A stretch of DNA of 49,061 bases, from positions 1-49,061 of IMG/VR virus record IMGVR_UViG_3300010412_000024, one strand, 5' to 3'. A program made the position numbers and the translations under genes. This stretch comes from a virus. The notes beneath the pieces were generated by a model. It was given only the letters and a program-made list of their open reading frames with translations, ran no database searches and was not told the DNA's origin. Positions 4,005 through 27,300 of this stretch are shown here, in pieces (within the stretch, counting starts at the first letter, position 1; the number at the start of each line of letters is the position of its first letter).

Positions 4005-4408
4005 ATAAAGACTTCATTGATCGAGTTAAGTTACATGAGGGCTATCGTTCCAAAGCTTATCAGGACACCGAGGGCGTGTGGACTATAGGGTATGGTACTA
4101 ATTTACAAGAGTTGGAGATATGTGTAGAGCTAGCAGAAAGCTGGCTCATTAAGAAGCTGGAGGAATCTGAGTTGTACGCTCGTAGGTTCTACGAGTGGCG
4201 CTACTTGGATACGGAAGCCAGACAGAATGTATTCATTGAGATGATATATAACATGGGACCAGATAGGGTCAGCGGATTCAAGAATATGCTGGCAGCTATG
4301 CGTCTACAGGATTGGAAGTTGGTGGCAACGGAGATGCTGGATAGTAAATGGGCGCAACAAGTAGGTAAGAGAGCTGAGACTCTCGCCTCTATTATGGTAC
4401 AGGGATAA
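4001..4408 (+). CDS. Endolysin, T4-type lysozyme (muramidase, GH24)
   Basis: A 135-residue glycoside hydrolase family 24 lysozyme that cleaves the MurNAc-GlcNAc bond of peptidoglycan at lysis. The catalytic triad spacing is intact: Glu13 in HEG, Asp22 in YQDTEG and Thr28 in WTIGYGTN, matching Glu11-Asp20-Thr26 of T4 lysozyme. It is slightly shorter than T4 lysozyme (164 residues). There is no signal peptide or N-terminal membrane anchor, so it should accumulate in the cytoplasm and need a canonical holin. It overlaps the preceding gene by four bases and is followed after five bases by a small membrane protein. Confidence 0.95.
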   Translation: MNKDFIDRVKLHEGYRSKAYQDTEGVWTIGYGTNLQELEICVELAESWLIKKLEESELYARRFYEWRYLDTEARQNVFIEMIYNMGPDRVSGFKNMLAAMRLQDWKLVATEMLDSKWAQQVGKRAETLASIMVQG

Positions 4409-21391: not shown

Positions 21392-21493
21392 ATTAATTTC
21401 CTTTCGTTCGGACTATCGTTCGGACTTCAATAAACCGGGGCGCGCACACACACACGCACCCTACCTGTACACTTTACATAAGGTAAGCCCCGC
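21392..21493 (-). promoter_or_regulatory. Spacer with short direct repeats, upstream of membrane protein genes
   Basis: About 100 bases without a gene. It contains an 11-base direct repeat TCGTTCGGACT twice (21404-21414 and 21416-21426) and an alternating CA/GT tract around 21442-21455. Overlapping its upper end is an 8-bp hairpin GCCCCGCC-TATT-GGCGGGGC (21487-21506) that spans the stop of the preceding gene. No convincing -10/-35 pair was found. It may be an mRNA processing or regulatory segment. Confidence 0.45.
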
Positions 21494-21676
21494 CTATTGG
21501 CGGGGCCTCCAAGTTAGGCCCTGCTCACGTATGAACACGAACCTTTCAATACCTAGGTCTTTAATAAAGACCACTAGCTGGGTCGATAGTACCGAGGACA
21601 CGGTGGCTTTTAGCCACCGGTCCTCTACCTGTACCTCTATTAGCCGAGGTATCTTAGCTTGTCCACGGGCAGTCAC
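21494..21676 (-). CDS. Hypothetical small protein
   Basis: A 60-residue basic beta-rich protein (IPRLIEVQVEDRWLKATVSS). It starts with GTG at 21676 and has a GAGGAA site seven bases upstream within the previous gene. It contains two strong inverted repeats, at 21556-21572 and 21594-21625. It is not recognised. Confidence 0.5.
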   Translation of the reverse strand: MTARGQAKIPRLIEVQVEDRWLKATVSSVLSTQLVVFIKDLGIERFVFIREQGLTWRPRQ

Positions 21677-21947
21677 CGTCCAGTTCCTCCCATTTAATGT
21701 CGGCTAGTTTAACAGCCTCCAGTTCCTCTCCCTTATAAAGGGAGTCCAATACAATCCAGTCACTCTCTTTGAGAGTGAACCGAGCCAGATCACTGGTATC
21801 AACCCAGCCTACTAGGCCCACGTTACTAGTGGACCCCCAGCCTATTGGGCTGGGGGTCGGCTTAATAGACCGCTTAATGACGGGCACTGACCACGTATTA
21901 TCACGGGTCAGAAACGCACCGTCATTACACCTACGTATCACGTACAT
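21654..21947 (-). CDS. Hypothetical early protein
   Basis: A 97-residue protein with several Trp (DNTWSVPVIKR, VGWVDTSDL, KWEELDGDCPW). It is not recognised. Its ATG overlaps the upstream stop (TAATG). Within the gene lie hairpins of 7, 7 and 9 bp (21728-21744, 21761-21777, 21834-21856), unusual for coding sequence. Confidence 0.65.
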   Translation of the reverse strand: MYVIRRCNDGAFLTRDNTWSVPVIKRSIKPTPSPIGWGSTSNVGLVGWVDTSDLARFTLKESDWIVLDSLYKGEELEAVKLADIKWEELDGDCPWTS

Positions 21948-22150
21948 TAGTAGTCCTCCCCTAAGTACTCATCCCATGCTTCCGGGGTGATGCCGGTCAT
22001 TATATACTCCCGGTCCTCCGGTGATAAGTGGGGCATAGCTTCCTGTATTAACATTCCCATTTCCCACGCGTCATACTGGGACTGGTCAATGTCCATGTCC
22101 CGGTGATGAATAGCCCCAGTAAACGGGCAGACACGAGTGATAGTAATCAT
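21947..22150 (-). CDS. Small conserved-type phage protein of unknown function
   Basis: A 67-residue protein of the pattern MITITRVCPFTGAIHHRDM, then LIQEAMPHLSPEDREYIMTG and ITPEAWDEYLG. This arrangement recurs in early regions of many podoviruses and siphoviruses of Gram-negative bacteria, without a known role. An AAGGAA ribosome binding site precedes it. The stop overlaps the next start. Confidence 0.75.
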   Translation of the reverse strand: MITITRVCPFTGAIHHRDMDIDQSQYDAWEMGMLIQEAMPHLSPEDREYIMTGITPEAWDEYLGEDY

Positions 22151-22184
22151 AACGTCGTTCCTTATAGCGCCACTAGATAAAAGA

Positions 22185-22222
22185 GTACAGCATAGCCGAT
22201 GGCACTAACAGCTATGCTGTAC
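22185..22222 (-). promoter_or_regulatory. 12-bp intergenic hairpin
   Basis: A perfect inverted repeat GTACAGCATAGC/GCTATGCTGTAC with a 14-base loop, within the 105-base gap upstream of the gene at 21947-22150. No T run follows. A second 6-bp hairpin (22244-22259) covers the stop codon of the preceding gene. Likely an RNA processing or stability element. Confidence 0.65.
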
Positions 22223-22255
22223 ATACCGCAGTTAGTTCTGACGCTAGCCTTAGGG

Positions 22256-22477
22256 CTAGTCCTCAGTTCGCTGCGATCTCTCAATGATACCTGCCTGATA
22301 GCGTACACTGGACCACGCCTTAGCTAACGTGCCAGCGAATCCCAAGCGCTCGCCCGCTAGGTCAGTGACCTTAAAGCGTCCGCCTTTAGCCGCTACATCC
22401 TGCCATATACGGAACACCTTGCCATGCTGGGTCACTAGTTGACCCGCAAACTGCCAGTCATCTGCGTTATTACGCAT
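22256..22477 (-). CDS. Hypothetical early protein
   Basis: A 73-residue, moderately basic protein starting MRNNADDWQFAGQLVTQHGK with a C-terminal helix (LAKAWSSVRYQAGIIERSQR). The ATG at 22477 has a GGAGG site five bases upstream. An ATG at 22489 is too close to that site. It is not recognised. Confidence 0.6.
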   Translation of the reverse strand: MRNNADDWQFAGQLVTQHGKVFRIWQDVAAKGGRFKVTDLAGERLGFAGTLAKAWSSVRYQAGIIERSQRTED

Positions 22478-22494
22478 ACATACCTCCATTAAGC

Positions 22495-22524
22495 CAAAGA
22501 AAAGGGGAGGCTATTAGCCTCCCC
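22495..22524 (-). terminator. Rho-independent terminator or attenuator in early operon
   Basis: A 9-bp perfect stem GGGGAGGCT/AGCCTCCCC with a 3-base loop, followed in the leftward direction by CCTTTTCTTT-type U-rich sequence. It sits between two early genes, so it probably reduces readthrough rather than ending the operon. Confidence 0.65.
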
Positions 22525-22532
22525 TCCGTGGG

Positions 22533-22892
22533 TCAAGCGGCCTTAATCAGCTTGACGTTACCAATGTAGCCACGATCCTTCAGGCTACCCATTTGGCTCG
22601 CCTTACGGTAGGCCAGCTTGGTCTCGCCATACTGGTTTTTCCGAGCATAGAGGACGTAGTCCTCTCCGTCAAGCTTAGCTCGCTTGGTTACGGTCGCTAC
22701 CATATGCTTCAGGTAGCCAGCCTCAACGGCGGGCCTGCTAGCGGGCAGCGGGTCCGCTATCTGAGCCGGAGCCTCCGTAATAACGGGGGCCTGCGTCACT
22801 GGCTTCTGTTCCACCAGTGTCATTACTGCCGTCGTCAGGCTATTAATAGCCTCCAGTACGTCCTTCATGCTAGTGCGCTGAGCACCCATAAT
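22533..22892 (-). CDS. Hypothetical early protein with Pro/Ala linker
   Basis: A 119-residue protein: an N-terminal helix (MGAQRTSMKDVLEAINSLTT), a Pro/Ala/Thr-rich linker (residues ~30-55) and a basic C-terminal domain (KRAKLDGEDYVLYARKNQYG, then KASQMGSLKDRGYIG). The basic domain could bind nucleic acid. The ATG at 22892 has GGAGG six bases upstream. A longer frame to 22958 would enter a hairpin. Several inverted repeats fall inside the gene, including 7 bp at 22649-22665 and a 16-base palindrome at 22837-22852. Confidence 0.65.
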   Translation of the reverse strand: MMGAQRTSMKDVLEAINSLTTAVMTLVEQKPVTQAPVITEAPAQIADPLPASRPAVEAGYLKHMVATVTKRAKLDGEDYVLYARKNQYGETKLAYRKASQMGSLKDRGYIGNVKLIKAA

Positions 22893-22945
22893 ACACCTCC
22901 GAGTCACACAAGCCAGCAAACTAGGGTGCTGGCATCCCTTCGTTC

Positions 22946-23004
22946 CTCCCCCTCTCACGCATCAGGGGGTCGTAAGACTCCCCCCTGATGCGAGAGAGGG
23001 GGAG
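22946..23004 (-). promoter_or_regulatory. 24-position intergenic hairpin
   Basis: Arms at 22946-22969 and 22981-23004 are complementary at 23 of 24 positions (one A-A mismatch), with an 11-base loop. The loop and closing bases (22966-22984) are identical over 19 bases to 23699-23717 in the next hairpin. It lies between the zinc-ribbon gene and the gene at 22533-22892, upstream of the latter's ribosome binding site. No U tract follows. It is a strong candidate for RNase III cleavage of the early transcript. Confidence 0.85.
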
Positions 23005-23012
23005 AATCCCGA

Positions 23013-23267
23013 TCATGGAATCCGATCGTCAGGGTACAAAGTACCCTGCCCGTCGGCCTTAGTATACGCACAGCCCGCACAGATAGCGTAGCTATCGCCA
23101 TCCTCATCGACCACTAGCTCTGCTAGTGGTTCATGGCAGAAGATACAGTGCTCCTCCCAGTCCCCCTCACTGAGGAGTGCAAAGCACTCCACGCAGGTGA
23201 GTCCGTCATCCGTAAGCTCCGAAGGAGCCACGACCGTCATACACTCATAGCAGTACGCTTCACTCAT
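23013..23267 (-). CDS. Double zinc-ribbon early protein
   Basis: An 84-residue acidic protein with four Cys-x-x-Cys knuckles: Cys6/9, 25/28, 41/44 and 63/66 (CYEC, CVEC, CIFC, CAGC). They probably form two zinc ribbons. Small zinc proteins in early phage regions often bind host transcription or nuclease complexes; no target can be named here. The ATG at 23267 has GGGGAG six bases upstream. A GTG at 23306 would overlap the upstream gene and a hairpin. Three perfect hairpins (23031, 23111, 23174) fall inside the gene. Confidence 0.7.
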   Translation of the reverse strand: MSEAYCYECMTVVAPSELTDDGLTCVECFALLSEGDWEEHCIFCHEPLAELVVDEDGDSYAICAGCAYTKADGQGTLYPDDRIP

Positions 23268-23290
23268 TTCACTCTCCCCGAGGGGGTGGC

Positions 23291-23671
23291 TCAAAGAGCC
23301 ACCCACTCGCCGTCGTCGTCCATCTCAATGGGTAATCCTTCCAAAGGAAGGATTACATCGCCAGTCTCTGGGTCAATCTCCCAATCGAACTCGTCATCAA
23401 AGATGACGGAGTCCAGATCCCCCATATTGATATTATCAATATGGTCCACGGAATCCTCTCGCCAAGCCCAAGTCCGTGGCATAGTGGGCGCTTGACCGTA
23501 CATCCAGCACTCATGCCAGAGATCTTCCTGCCCCGCATCCCCTGAGTAATACTCAGGGTATGCCTGTCGCTCCATTCTGGCCTCGGCCTCCTCGGCTACG
23601 CCGAGCCAGTAGCGTATCACGGCGTCAATGCCGAAGGCATCAATAGCAGCTTGCATCATCAGGTCGTTCAT
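23291..23671 (-). CDS. Strongly acidic early protein
   Basis: A 126-residue protein. The N-terminal half is helical with many Ala and Trp. Residues 72-126 are very acidic (IFDDEFDWEIDPETGDVI, then IEMDDDGEWVAL). This charge pattern is seen in DNA-mimic anti-restriction or host-inhibitor proteins, but no specific family is recognised. An AAGGAG site precedes the ATG. Six inverted repeats with stems of 6-11 bp lie inside the gene, the best at 23332-23356 (11 bp, AAA loop) and 23422-23444 (10 bp). Confidence 0.65.
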   Translation of the reverse strand: MNDLMMQAAIDAFGIDAVIRYWLGVAEEAEARMERQAYPEYYSGDAGQEDLWHECWMYGQAPTMPRTWAWREDSVDHIDNINMGDLDSVIFDDEFDWEIDPETGDVILPLEGLPIEMDDDGEWVAL

Positions 23672-23683
23672 CGGTTTCTCCTT

Positions 23684-23732
23684 TTACCCTCTCTAGCTGG
23701 GGTCGTAAGACTCCCCCAGCGTAAGAGGGTAA
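23684..23732 (-). promoter_or_regulatory. Two-block intergenic hairpin with shared core
   Basis: Outer stem TTACCCTCT/AGAGGGTAA (9 bp), a 3x3 internal loop, and inner stem GCTGGGG/CCCCAGC (7 bp), closed by TCGTAAGACT(C). Bases 23699-23717 are identical to 22966-22984. It lies directly upstream of the acidic early gene. There is no U run. Probable RNA processing or stability element. Confidence 0.75.
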
Positions 23733-23748
23733 GTGTCGGTTGTCAAGC

Positions 23749-23985
23749 TCAGATATCCACCTCAAAGAGGTGGATCAGTTTGGCTTCGCCGTAGCAGTCC
23801 AGCCAGTCCATCCACTCTGGATCCCAAGGATCCAGATCGTGCAGGTAAGCCGTGATCGCGGTACGGAGCGAAGCTCCGTCAACGTCCATGTAGCCAGCTT
23901 CGCTGGCCCAGCGGATGGCTTTGCCATCCAGTTCGGCTCTTTTAGAGCCAGCGAAAGCCCGGAGCCTTGCCATTTCTGTTGCCAT
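23749..23985 (-). CDS. First gene of leftward operon, hypothetical
   Basis: A 78-residue protein starting MATEMARLRAFAGSKRAELD, helical, with a Trp/Asp-rich second half (YLHDLDPWDPEWMDWLDCYG). It is not recognised. As the first translated gene after the early promoter it probably acts immediately after infection. The GAGGAG ribosome binding site overlaps the base of the 27-bp compound hairpin at 23991-24052, so its translation may depend on that structure. Six inverted repeats with 3-base loops lie inside it (stems of 6-9 bp). Confidence 0.65.
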   Translation of the reverse strand: MATEMARLRAFAGSKRAELDGKAIRWASEAGYMDVDGASLRTAITAYLHDLDPWDPEWMDWLDCYGEAKLIHLFEVDI

Positions 23986-24360
23986 TTCTCTCTCCTCTGA
24001 GGGGACAATCCCCTTTCACAAATGAAAGGGGTTGTCCCCGAATCAGAGGAGAGAACCCCGGAGCCTAGCGCAAACCCCCAAAGGGGGTTTGCATCTGCGC
24101 GTACACACCTGCACACACGCTTAACATAGACCCCTTTGGGGTCTATGTCAAACGGGAGGTTAGACCGTTTGGTTATAAGGATCAAAGATCCTTATAAGCT
24201 TAGCGAAATCAGCCACTTGGTCAATCGACCGGCCTTTGGCCGGTACCTGCGGGTGCGCGCGCAGATCCGGGTGCGCGTTAGGTGAGGCCGACCGACGGCC
24301 CCGGAGGGGCCGGGGACCGGGGGTACCGCCTTCGGCGGGGAAAGCCACCTAAAAACTTTC
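23986..24360 (-). other. Untranslated early leader with seven or more consecutive hairpins
   Basis: About 375 bases between the likely early promoter and the first gene. In order of transcription the hairpins are 24326-24338 (5 bp), 24296-24312 (7 bp), 24228-24244 (7 bp), 24173-24197 (11 bp), 24149-24171 (7 bp, 9-base loop), 24124-24148 (11 bp), 24070-24092 (10 bp) and 23991-24052 (27 bp). Most have loops of three bases. The only frame (24160-24348) has no ribosome binding site and its composition is set by the hairpins, so this is better read as structured RNA. It is similar in design to phage antitermination or stability leaders, but the sequence matches none I know. Confidence 0.7.
23991..24052 (-). 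promoter_or_regulatory. 27-bp compound hairpin over first ribosome binding site
   Basis: Three stacked stems: TCTCCTCTGA/TCAGAGGAGA (10 bp), GGGGACAA/TTGTCCCC (8 bp) and CCCCTTTCA/TGAAAGGGG (9 bp). They are separated by small bulges and closed by CAAA. In the leftward RNA the 3' arm contains the GAGGAG of the first early gene, so the folded form could block translation until it is opened or cut. Confidence 0.8.
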
Positions 24361-24368
24361 TCAGAGAA

Positions 24369-24396
24369 ATTATAGGATGTTGATAACCTTGATAAA
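24369..24396 (-). promoter_or_regulatory. Likely early promoter of the leftward arm
   Basis: On the minus strand a perfect TATAAT (24374 to 24369) precedes the hairpin leader by about ten bases. It sits in the most AT-rich part of the window. The -35 region is weak (TTTATC at 16-base spacing). It is compatible with host sigma70 RNA polymerase, which this phage needs because it encodes no polymerase of its own. Inferred from sequence only. Confidence 0.5.
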
Positions 24397-24407
24397 CTTA
24401 AAATAAA

Positions 24408-24437
24408 TTGAACTTTTTCACTTTAAATTTGTCTAAT
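24408..24437 (+). promoter_or_regulatory. Possible promoter of the rightward arm
   Basis: TTGAAC (24408-24413) and TCTAAT (24432-24437) are separated by 18 bases, giving a sigma70-like pair. Another TTGATA occurs at 24380 and 24389. The transcript would start about 24444 and carry a leader of roughly 90 bases before the first structural gene. Tentative. Confidence 0.35.
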
Positions 24438-24535
24438 AATGGAAGACATTAAGAAAATAAAGTCTTCCCTTCTGACCCTTAGGGAAGAAGGTAGTAGTCT
24501 TCTCATTATTATTTTATTGGGGCTCTATCTTTTAT
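24438..24535 (+). promoter_or_regulatory. Rightward leader with competing hairpins
   Basis: The arm GTCTTCC (24462-24468) can pair with GGAAGAC (24441-24447). The overlapping CTTCCCT (24464-24470) can pair with AGGGAAG (24481-24487), and AGAAG near 24486 with CTTCT near 24499. These stems exclude one another, as in attenuators. The rest of this AT-rich stretch holds no other signal that I can see. Confidence 0.4.
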
Positions 24536-25159
24536 ATGACTATTTCAAATGAAACTAATATGAATACTGCTCAACCCGAAGGGGTTGAGTGGGTCAACTC
24601 CTCGGAGTCAGGGGTATCGGACTCCGAGGTACATACCATAGTACAGGATCTAACAGATCCTGAGGACGTATTCTCTCCTATGAAGGATAGGTTAGGGCGG
24701 TTCAGGACCGCCTCCCTGTTCTGGGAATCCAGAACTGGGGACTATCCTTGTTTCTTTACCCTTAAGCCTTATGACCATAAGGGGTGTATCAGCCTGTACC
24801 GTAAGTACATGGAGATAGGCGACCCGACCGAGTATCGGTTCGCCATAGGGTGTTTTGGCTCGTGGAAGCACTGGCAAGTGCTCACAAAGCTGCAATGGTT
24901 TCAGCCGCACCACGAAGAGTGGAAGAAAGAGCTGGAACTCAAGCTCATCTCGGACCAGTACGACCGTATGGAGGATATAGCCAAGACGGCCCCCAAGGGG
25001 AGCCCGTCGCACATAGCGGCAGTCAAGTGGCTTGCCGAGTTCAACCAGCCCAAGAAACGGGGCCGACCCTCCAAGGCGGAAAGAGCGCAACTCCTAAAGG
25101 AGGAGCGTATAGCCAAGACTACCGTTAACGAAGACGCACAACTTCTCGGACTCAACTAA
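24536..25159 (+). CDS. Putative terminase small subunit
   Basis: A 207-residue protein. The N-terminal 35 residues are Ser/Glu-rich and probably disordered. The middle (LYRKYMEIGDPTEYRFAIGC, then WKHWQVLTKLQWFQPHHEEW) is a helical region of a type seen in small terminases or DNA-packaging proteins of podoviruses. The C-terminus has KKRGRPSKAE, an AT-hook-like DNA-binding tail common at the end of such proteins. The large terminase is 5.7 kb downstream in the same operon. The ribosome binding site is weak; an in-frame ATG at 24560 is possible. Several hairpins lie in the first 350 bases. Confidence 0.6.
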   Translation: MTISNETNMNTAQPEGVEWVNSSESGVSDSEVHTIVQDLTDPEDVFSPMKDRLGRFRTASLFWESRTGDYPCFFTLKPYDHKGCISLYRKYMEIGDPTEYRFAIGCFGSWKHWQVLTKLQWFQPHHEEWKKELELKLISDQYDRMEDIAKTAPKGSPSHIAAVKWLAEFNQPKKRGRPSKAERAQLLKEERIAKTTVNEDAQLLGLN

Positions 25160-25494
25160 TGACGAAACCAGTTTTACCCGTTGACCAGTACGGTCGATCT
25201 ATCCAAGCCCTTGAGCCCTCCGGCCCCACAGCCGGAACCCTCAAGCTCAACATAGGCGCAGGGTCTGTGTCAGGGGCCTATCCCTCAAACGTCATCCCCG
25301 GCACTTCGCTGGTCAGGATCGCGTCCGTGGGAGATTGTTACATGAAATTCGGAGATAGCGGTGTAACAGCCACCGCTAACGATATGCTCTTCCCCTCCGG
25401 GGTAGAGTACTTACGTGCCCCTAGGGGTACTACGCACGTAGCCGTACTTCAGGTATCGGCCACGGGCGTTTTTACATTAACCGAGGTATCGTAA
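25159..25494 (+). CDS. Small beta-rich virion protein
   Basis: A 111-residue protein with the segment TSLVRIASVGDCYMKFGDSG followed by DMLFPSGVEYLRAPRGTTHV, a pattern found in small structural or decoration proteins of many phages. No catalytic motif is present. The ATG overlaps the upstream stop (TAATG). Probably part of the head or tail surface. Confidence 0.6.
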   Translation: MTKPVLPVDQYGRSIQALEPSGPTAGTLKLNIGAGSVSGAYPSNVIPGTSLVRIASVGDCYMKFGDSGVTATANDMLFPSGVEYLRAPRGTTHVAVLQVSATGVFTLTEVS

Positions 25495-26414: not shown

Positions 26415-26818
26415 TGGCTGACGTACTCAACAGAACAGACGGGGCAACGTTTCCGTATAGTAAGACGTTGCTCTTCTCCGTTAACGAACCAGACTATCCG
26501 CAGGTAGACTGGATCTGGAATCCAGATCTGTCGGCTGTGCAGGGCTTCAACTCGATTTACTGGGACATTACGGGGGACAGTGTGGTGCTGGTCGATCAGG
26601 CAACCCGAGATGCTCGGGATGCCGAACTAGCGGCGGCGGCACTTACCAATAAACGAGAATCCCTTAAAGCCCGGTACGATACCGAGGATCTGCTCAAGGC
26701 GTTCGCGGACGTAATGATCGACGAGATCAACGTCCTGCGCCAGCAACACGCGCTCTCGGATCGTACGGCAGCGCAGCTACGTACGGCGCTGCGTAACAGA
26801 CTGGATCAGGTGACGTAA
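26414..26818 (+). CDS. Hypothetical virion-associated protein
   Basis: A 134-residue protein. The N-terminal 55 residues are beta-like with many Trp/Tyr, then an Ala-rich helical half (DAELAAAALTNKRESLKARY, DEINVLRQQHALSDRT). This layout occurs in small proteins near tail-fibre or head-fibre genes of podoviruses. Start and stop overlap with neighbours. Function unknown. Confidence 0.6.
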   Translation: MADVLNRTDGATFPYSKTLLFSVNEPDYPQVDWIWNPDLSAVQGFNSIYWDITGDSVVLVDQATRDARDAELAAAALTNKRESLKARYDTEDLLKAFADVMIDEINVLRQQHALSDRTAAQLRTALRNRLDQVT

Positions 26819-27300
26819 TGGCAACCGCGAACTTATTGCTCCCCATCCCGGCACATCAGGCGGATCCCACTAATCCGCCCGCGCTGTTGTTCACGGCGTC
26901 GAATCGTCCGTATTTGGCGTTCGATGGTACCACGGATGAACTGGTTATCTGGCAATTCAAGATGCCGGGGGACTACGCCAGTGGCCTGACGGTCAAGGTG
27001 GTGTATTCAATGGCGAGCGCCACTGCCAACAATATCGCCATACGGACAAACCTGATGGCTATTGCAGACGGCGAGACCATAGATACGGATGGCTGGTCCA
27101 CTACGGAATCATCGGCGGATCAGACCGTACCCGGTACGGCTGGACTGATGAAGACCGTTAGTGATGCCATCACTACAGTAACTATCGCGGCAAACGACTA
27201 TATAGCATTTCGGCTTGGCCGTGAGAACGGTACGTCGGGAACCAATGCGACGGGCGACATGGAGGTGTGGGCCGTATCGCTTGAGTACACGACGACCTAA
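26818..27300 (+). CDS. Beta-rich structural protein
   Basis: A 160-residue protein (RPYLAFDGTTDELVIWQFKM, then GDYASGLTVKVVYSMASATA). It probably forms a jelly-roll domain like the small capsid or appendage proteins found in many environmental phages. No enzyme motif is present. The ATG overlaps the upstream stop. Confidence 0.6.
   Translation: MATANLLLPIPAHQADPTNPPALLFTASNRPYLAFDGTTDELVIWQFKMPGDYASGLTVKVVYSMASATANNIAIRTNLMAIADGETIDTDGWSTTESSADQTVPGTAGLMKTVSDAITTVTIAANDYIAFRLGRENGTSGTNATGDMEVWAVSLEYTTT

Follow-up and report, generated by a model that had tools for sequence, protein, structure and literature searches.

The window analysed here, 49,061 nt of viral DNA (positions 1 to 49,061 of IMG/VR record IMGVR_UViG_3300010412_000024), raises the question of why the early genes of a podovirus should be crowded with short perfect palindromes. 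Between 21556 and 24662, a stretch that covers the promoter-proximal early genes of the minus strand, we found 24 perfect hairpins with a 3-nt loop and a stem of at least 7 bp (7-11), plus several with 6-bp stems (Table 1). They sit inside as well as between these genes, which are the first to be expressed. The original prediction had counted 22 such stems; exactly 22 were recovered between 21728 and 24662, with the three 11-bp stems at the positions claimed, and there are two more at 21556 and 21601. Its random expectation of about 0.2 also agreed with ours, since 200 dinucleotide shuffles of 21487-24700 gave 0.21 triloop hairpins (maximum 2). Within the listed ORFs we found 15, against a mean of 0.46 (maximum 3) in 300 codon-preserving shuffles; selection on protein is insufficient, as had been argued, and a nucleotide-level constraint is needed. 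The remaining 45.8 kb of the window contains only seven triloop hairpins with stems of at least 7 bp. Loops of 4 and 6 nt were barely enriched in the window (3 each vs about 0.2), and the 16 apparent 5-nt loops were mostly triloops whose innermost pair had been counted into the loop.

The zone had also been thought to include the first structural gene on the plus strand and to reach 26.5 kb. It does occupy the early minus-strand genes; the plus-strand gene has one hairpin only, with an atypical loop, which may be a chance occurrence. The hairpin at 26512-26528 lies at background density, so the zone ends before 26.5 kb. Transposed or repeated elements were ruled out, the stem sequences being unrelated to one another. 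We found no description of such an early-region hairpin pattern in the literature.

Table 1. Features of the hairpin zone, in window coordinates.
Feature	Positions	Strand	Basis
Minihairpin GGTCTTT-AAT-AAAGACC	21556..21572	.	hairpin listing
Minihairpin CGGTGGCT-TTT-AGCCACCG	21601..21619	.	hairpin listing
Minihairpin CTCCCTT-ATA-AAGGGAG	21728..21744	.	hairpin listing
Minihairpin TCACTCTC-TTT-GAGAGTGA	21760..21778	.	hairpin listing
10-bp hairpin, then T-rich tail on minus strand; probable intrinsic terminator	22503..22525	-	
Early gene, family A3: N-terminal helix, Ala/Pro linker, C-terminal alpha/beta domain	22536..22889	-	
Minihairpin AGAGGAC-GTA-GTCCTCT	22649..22665	.	
Long leader hairpin upstream of early gene; apex GGA-GTC-TTAC-GAC in gene sense	22946..23004	-	
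Minihairpin, AAA loop	23030..23048	.	
Minihairpin, TCT loop	23110..23130	.	
Minihairpin, AAA loop	23174..23190	.	
Minihairpin, AAA loop	23284..23304	.	
Minihairpin, 11 bp, AAA loop	23332..23356	.	
Minihairpin, AAA loop	23392..23408	.	
Minihairpin, 10 bp, ATT loop	23422..23444	.	
Minihairpin, AAT loop	23540..23558	.	
Leader hairpin, apex as in 22946-23004; just upstream of RBS of gene 23291-23671	23685..23731	-	
Minihairpin, AAA loop	23755..23775	.	
Minihairpin, CAA loop	23816..23836	.	
Minihairpin, GAA loop	23863..23879	.	
Minihairpin, TTT loop	23913..23929	.	
Long leader hairpin, apex differs; upstream of gene 23749-23985	23990..24053	-	
Minihairpin, 10 bp, AAA loop	24070..24092	.	
Sigma70-like promoter TTGACA-17-TATGTT, 10/12	24123..24151	-	consensus match only
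Minihairpin, 11 bp, TTT loop; between -35 and -10 of promoter-like site	24124..24148	.	
Minihairpin, 11 bp, AAA loop	24173..24197	.	
Minihairpin, TTT loop	24228..24244	.	
Minihairpin, GGA loop; early-side unit closest to divergent intergenic region	24296..24312	.	
Minihairpin, AAC loop (atypical), first plus-strand gene	24644..24662	.	

Seven further uncultured phages of the same Zobellviridae-like clade (G001, G002, G004, G005, G006, G009 and L141) have such a zone in the corresponding position, next to the divergent promoter in early genes of the minus strand, and so does the unrelated 65-kb phage L193, also uncultured. Since it is replicated across independent phages, the zone is not an assembly quirk. 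In every positive genome the hairpins are confined to the early zone. The window phage itself appears to belong to Zobellviridae, judging from its TerL (51-58% to Cobavirinae, ICP2 and relatives) and shared core genes. We did not find the zone in the close relative G003, whose polymerase, helicase and primase are the same as those of the window phage, nor in the other Zobellviridae examined, N4 or T7. Scanning IMG/VR with a single DNA polymerase sequence gave no match.

Pooling nine zones provided a common anatomy of the hairpins. Perfect triloops of at least 7 bp numbered 135 (1.8 expected) and tetraloops 20 (0.8 expected), and loops of 5-7 nt showed no excess; the “tetraloops” of ctOsX528 were TA repeats, a low-complexity artefact, and were discarded. 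Stem length in triloop hairpins is unimodal with a peak at 7 bp (22, 52, 67, 32 and 11 stems of 5, 6, 7, 8 and 9 bp), whereas hairpins with other loop sizes become monotonically rarer as the stem lengthens. The closing pair is 5'-Y…R-3' in 190 of 198 hairpins, C-G in 167, and 175 have a loop of the class RNA or its complement TNY (R, N and Y in IUPAC code). The strand ratio of this class is nearly symmetric (94:81), with a sense excess only where the loop is exactly one codon (48:25; otherwise 46:56). The hairpins had been said to occur in all codon phases; these are in fact unequal, with the loop centre at codon positions 2, 1 and 3 in 90, 45 and 20 cases. Zones hold about 20-30 hairpins per 2-3 kb, one every ~45 bp in both orientations, and the spacing is more even than random in a test that leaves out gaps >150 nt by design and is thus slightly biased towards evenness. 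The stem sequence is free: the feature is conserved, its sequences are not. Arm co-variation in related phages, proposed earlier as a check, was indeed seen: homologous hairpins kept pairing through double changes, with 7 independent compensated pairs, 4 of them of transversion type, and about one internal uncompensated change among conserved hairpins. At the protein site E-D-x-V-L-Y of hairpin 22649-22665, L141 also has a hairpin, and G005 has one in a shifted position.

Tentatively, and at somewhat less than an even chance, we read the zone as an array of ~17-nt minihairpins that selection maintains in the DNA duplex itself, along the promoter-proximal early operon. The uniform size, strand symmetry, compensated changes and even spacing speak for selection on DNA structure rather than for mRNA structure or for template switching by itself. 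Its unit would be a perfect ~7-bp stem with a Y-R closing pair, mostly C-G, and a triloop reading RNA or TNY on opposite strands. These units may form as DNA hairpins or mini-cruciforms, since the hairpins of N4 early promoters owe their extrusion under physiological supercoiling to a loop of this class; in N4, a loop with 5' G and 3' A plus a C:G closing pair is required for extrusion (PMC4496689). In the role that we prefer, the entering DNA would be relaxed and the early operon freely transcribed, gyrase or outward transcription would then make the region negatively supercoiled, and the extruded hairpins would take up superhelicity and impede both initiation and elongation, as an early-off switch. 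In the N4 study, placing a hairpin between -35 and -10 silenced the promoter, and inhibiting gyrase lifted this block (PMC4496689). The best early promoter match of the window has an 11-bp hairpin exactly between -35 and -10, a single case, and overlaps of hairpins with promoter-like matches are also common elsewhere, given the number of hairpins. Foremost among other uses for such a structure would be the binding of a structure-specific protein, either host SSB or a phage protein.

Several points count against the DNA reading. Palindromes of 7 bp are not expected to extrude unless the loop is special, and the parallel with N4 loops covers GNA only, while ~40% of the loops are ANA/TNT. The zone coincides with an early transcription unit, for which mRNA structure is an equally natural explanation; moreover, the apex of the leader hairpins follows gene orientation, as RNA would. 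It is possible, at a confidence clearly below even, that these unrelated phages share an undescribed genome feature, in which an early operon under protein constraint also forms a regular series of DNA minihairpins of standard size. Supercoiling would extrude these minihairpins, which would serve the early DNA as a structural switch or shield.

Template switching had been suggested as a cause, and we consider it unlikely. The nascent strand would fold back at CRNAG sites and one arm would be copied onto the other (quasipalindrome correction), leaving useless stems that persist where the proteins tolerate them. This process creates and maintains hairpins (PMC8794818), and has been put forward to explain the palindromes in coding genes of Nematomorpha mtDNA (PMC6649704). 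It would account for the perfect pairing with few signs of G-U tolerance, the fast turnover of the hairpins, their strand symmetry, the double changes of transversion type and a loop class able to seed fold-back. However, the hairpins are limited to one region of ~2-3 kb and are absent from the neighbouring ORFan genes of the window (20.2-21.4 kb); G003 is zone-free with the same replication genes; and neither the stem length peak nor the even spacing fits. In comparison with homologues, which are distant, both arms have diverged, and loop class did not predict which arm was the derived one; this may also count against arm copying. Template switching is therefore unsupported as the sole cause, and may still help by correcting arms.

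The other proposed cause, structured early RNA, seems rather improbable. Local hairpins would shield early transcripts from ribonucleases, Rho or RNA-targeting defence, and each gene would also have a protective leader hairpin. Consistent with this, the zone spans the promoter-proximal early operon, and leader hairpins with a conserved apex, oriented with the gene, closely precede ribosome-binding sites. RNA folding of the zones, in line with earlier advice to fold the early mRNAs, gave extreme values (z about -4; zones -2.7 to -4.7, controls -0.3 to -1.6), but the sense strand was not consistently more stable than the antisense. GNA/UNU loops have a slight sense excess (104:71), but the sense excess of the loop class is restricted to loops that equal a codon. 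G-U pairs are symmetric between sense and antisense, both at the first mismatch beyond the stem (38 vs 37) and inside stems (8 vs 4), and loops of 5-8 nt, acceptable in RNA, are not enriched. Given these symmetries and the inconsistent sense stability, structured RNA lacks support as the main cause. Intrinsic terminators were rejected as an explanation: terminator-like sites in 21400-24700 number 3, with 2.4 expected by chance, and only the minihairpin 22503-22525 is clearly one (a stem, then a T run). Rfam gave no match at the gathering score, and its weak microRNA-precursor matches fell mostly on leader hairpins. Scanning GTDB contigs for the apex pattern gave matches that look like chance, except for short GAGTCTTACGACTC palindromes; no cultured relative turned up in searches with the zone or with the leader apex.

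It is more doubtful still that the hairpins are sites for a hairpin-recognising protein, be they promoters of an N4-type virion RNA polymerase, primase start sites or targets of an unknown phage protein. The 7-bp stem, triloop and loop class do resemble N4 virion-RNAP promoters, such as GTTGC-TTC-GCAAC and AAGAAGC-TCC-GCTTCTT at the N4 left end: such promoters have a stem of 5-7 bp, a 3-nt loop, a C-G closing pair and purine/A loop ends on the recognised strand, and the zone hairpins are triloops with a stem mode of 7 bp that agree in closing pair and loop class in the proportions given above. Nevertheless, the orientation of the zone hairpins is random rather than fixed upstream of early genes, many lie inside genes, and their density is far beyond promoter needs. 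Family searches of the main window proteins revealed no RNA polymerase; a 1664-aa protein matches the internal virion protein family phrog_12003. N4-type promoters were rejected on the missing polymerase and the random orientation. We also looked for a hairpin-specific gene and identified none. The A3 gene is conserved in the hairpin-bearing clade, and was discarded as a specific partner because a similar protein seems present in the hairpin-free G003; its model (pLDDT 66) had no significant Foldseek match. Evasion of CRISPR spacers stays speculative, as by our estimate about one third of 32-nt protospacers would hold a whole hairpin at the observed spacing.

To our knowledge, few natural coding regions keep dozens of one-size perfect palindromes alongside a protein sequence. 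If the DNA reading is true, the lesson of N4, that small DNA hairpins work in early phage DNA, would widen from a few promoters to entire operons; if the mutational reading is true, a localised hairpin-writing mutation process would be revealed. Synonymous recoding offers a direct test of either reading, and any genome can be searched for the motif, a Y-[RNA/TNY]-R triloop on a stem of at least 6 bp.

Among known systems, template-switch (quasipalindrome) mutations share with the zone perfect stems and double compensatory changes (PMC8794818), but as a general mechanism they give no reason for one 2-3 kb zone, a loop class or a stem length. The mitochondrial coding palindromes of Nematomorpha are likewise perfect inverted repeats within coding genes, gained and lost between species, all-or-none in identity and unequal in codon phase, with one phase disfavoured (PMC6649704). 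They differ in being long (up to 284 bp) and in lying in respiratory genes, whereas the phage hairpins are uniform in size and loop class, and occur in the early region only. The palindromes of Streptomyces telomeres have small purine-rich loops. They are DNA palindromes that, as in the zone, are tightly packed (PMC4513846); they form terminal 3' overhangs of linear replicons, whereas the phage zone is an internal coding region of a contig. The early-promoter hairpins of N4 (Schitoviridae), which extrude from supercoiled DNA (PMC4496689), resemble those of the zone in having a short stem with a C-G closing pair, a loop of 3 nt that is GNA-type on one strand, and an early location. They are few and oriented, with conserved stem bases, and are read by a 3,500-aa virion RNAP, whereas the zone, with no such RNAP found, packs its ~20-30 hairpins per 2-3 kb into genes, in random orientation and with free stem sequence.

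An exhaustive scan of the window returned the 22 perfect stems of at least 7 bp with 3-nt loops that the original prediction had counted between 21728 and 24662, and added two perfect triloop stems at 21556 and 21601. Dinucleotide shuffles of the zone gave an expectation of 0.21. The predicted excess also held against codon-preserving shuffles of the zone ORFs (15 observed, 0.46 expected), the ORFs here not coming from a trained gene finder. Density is unequal across the window, as had been proposed: 22 (+2) hairpins in the zone, versus only seven in the 45.8 kb outside 21487-24700. The zone stems pair perfectly and stop abruptly; only a few contain internal mismatches. The sole near copy of the window, L001, is 99.7% identical over 8.7 kb, and none of its 26 differences falls within a zone hairpin.

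We pooled nine zones (19.3 kb), oriented by their early genes. Perfect triloops of at least 7 bp numbered 135 (1.8 expected) and tetraloops 20 (0.8 expected), while loops of 5-7 were not in excess. Closing pairs were C-G in 167 cases, T-A in 23, and A-T and G-C in four each; in the window, 24/24 stems of at least 7 bp have a Y-R closing pair (R, N and Y are IUPAC codes throughout). The most frequent sense loops, with closing bases, were CGAAG, CTTTG, CTACG, CGTAG, CATAG and CTCTG. For Y-[RNA or TNY]-R loops, stem lengths have a clear mode at 7 (3:27, 4:14, 5:22, 6:52, 7:67, 8:32, 9:11, 10:4, 11:3, 12:1), whereas all other loops fall monotonically. Within most dense runs the spacing is more even than random placement (P 0.002-0.08 in 7/11 runs), although the run definition slightly biases this test. 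Codon positions 2:1:3 lie under the loop centre in the ratio 90:45:20; unequal phases are shared with the coding palindromes of Nematomorpha, in which one phase is favoured and one disfavoured (PMC6649704).

Relatives were collected by terminase-profile and early-gene-profile scans. Seven other lineages have an equivalent zone in the equivalent place (G001/L014, G002/L018, G004/L021, G005/L022 with L143, G006/L024, G009/L040 and L141). G003 (GC 40%) has none, despite common replication genes and a terminase at similar distance. Zones were also absent from G008, G010 and G011, from those parts of CRP-4, ICP2 and ctOsX528 that were retrieved, from four more database Zobellviridae, from the first 50 kb of N4 and from T7; some absences may stem from incomplete contigs. 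A zone of like kind is present in L193/L182, an unrelated 65-kb phage (GC 62%) reached via the leader-hairpin motif described below, with a DnaB helicase and a replication initiator on the opposite strand. The likewise unrelated G013 and G014 are rich in perfect triloop and tetraloop hairpins at 24-31 kb (G013, L122-L124) and 20-25.5 kb (G014, L125-L127); in these zones loop preferences are looser and tetraloops numerous. All zone-bearing genomes are uncultured. We found no description of such zones in the open-access literature, which does not prove absence.

Between homologous zones, each hairpin is either retained or wholly lost; where one is missing both arms differ, irrespective of loop orientation. 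The suggested comparison of arms for co-variation gave seven independent pairing-preserving double changes in retained hairpins (three transition-type, four transversion-type), against about one uncompensated internal change. Examples are CACTTCC-AAA-GGAAGTG / CACTACC-AAA-GGTAGTG (one side synonymous, the other a Ser/Thr swap) and CATCGTC-CTT-GACGATG / CATTGTC-GTT-GACAATG (Asp/Asn). At the protein site E-x-V-V-L-Y the window, L141 and G005 have hairpins differing in loop or stem. Correction by template switching may contribute to arm identity. We argue for selection on hairpin formation because size, loop class and spacing are uniform, because the hairpins are confined to one region, and because the zone recurs in unrelated phages and is absent from G003. 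Separately, the phages L143 and L145, near-identical elsewhere, differ by replacement or deletion of a short early-gene segment around L143:540-580 that includes a 5-bp triloop hairpin.

Selection for structured early RNA had also been proposed. The zones do fold strongly as RNA (z about -4); sense and antisense energies showed no consistent difference. On the sense strand, RNA-type loops number 94 and TNY loops 81. GNA+UNU loops are in nominal excess over UNC+ANA (104:71, p=0.015); the R:Y ratio is 48:25 where the loop is one codon and 46:56 for the remaining two phases together with non-coding DNA, the excess leaving no trace outside codon-framed loops. The first mismatch past the stem is a sense wobble in 38 cases and an antisense wobble in 37; inside stems these small counts are 8 and 4. 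A purely mRNA-level constraint is expected to give strand asymmetry, and none is clear, the in-stem counts being small. The symmetry points to DNA (or both strands), and not mRNA, as the target of selection; effects on mRNA are unavoidable, since the same sequences fold as RNA.

A second element, the leader hairpin, precedes early genes and is oriented with them; it has a long variable stem, a bulged GGA and a fixed apex.

Leader hairpins and promoter match in the window
Feature	Position	Strand	Remarks
Leader hairpin	22946-23004	-	GGA-GTC-TTAC-GAC apex
Leader hairpin	23685-23731	-	GGA-GTC-TTAC-GAC apex
Promoter match TTGACA-17-TATGTT	24123-24151	-	sigma70-like; best on early strand of window

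The apex element of the window recurs in G004, G006, G013, G014 and L182/L193, a set that includes unrelated phages; it was found by sequence, apart from gene context, in L093, and was absent from the cultured phages searched. Its natural level is RNA. Because it co-occurs with the zone in several phages, both may be parts of a single early-region strategy or share a single host range.

Several further observations stand apart. The early protein family A3 (window 22536-22889, minus strand), without known match, has an N-terminal helix, an Ala/Pro linker and an alpha/beta C-terminal domain (VLYARxNxxGETKLA); proteins of similar build occur in the early regions of L193, G009 and G003. An early-region ORF of G003 (26705-27268, minus strand of the oriented genome) resembles, by eye, an ECF-type sigma factor. 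L051 repeats GTTAAC-NNN-GTTAAC palindromes (at 4210, 6329, 6441, 7240 and 7529), probably a protein-binding site; their stem is repeated, whereas minihairpin stems are free.

The window is an IMG/VR virus record, and its terminase is 51-58% identical to those of Zobellviridae (Cobavirinae, ICP2 and relatives). Early genes run leftward from ~24.4 kb (polymerase, DnaB-type helicase, primase, Cas4-type exonuclease, ribonucleotide reductase) and structural genes rightward. Searches with the main window proteins turned up no RNA polymerase; for the 1664-aa protein the match is to a family of internal virion proteins. For a cultured member, a linear genome flanked by terminal repeats of 711 bp has been described in a paper that also discusses transcription via sigma-factor changes (PMC9960094).

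We prefer the reading in which zone hairpins would be extrudable minicruciforms, because they share the loop class of the early-promoter hairpins of N4 and because an 11-bp perfect hairpin occupies the 17-bp spacer of the promoter match. From this anatomy we infer that they could form a supercoil-dependent off-switch, or a structural array, of the early operon. For the N4 hairpins, supercoil-driven extrusion needs C:G as the closing pair and a loop with 5'G/3'A ends, and such a hairpin put between -35 and -10 left a promoter silent unless gyrase was inhibited (PMC4496689); the window promoter match has the layout of that experimentally built, supercoil-silenced construct.
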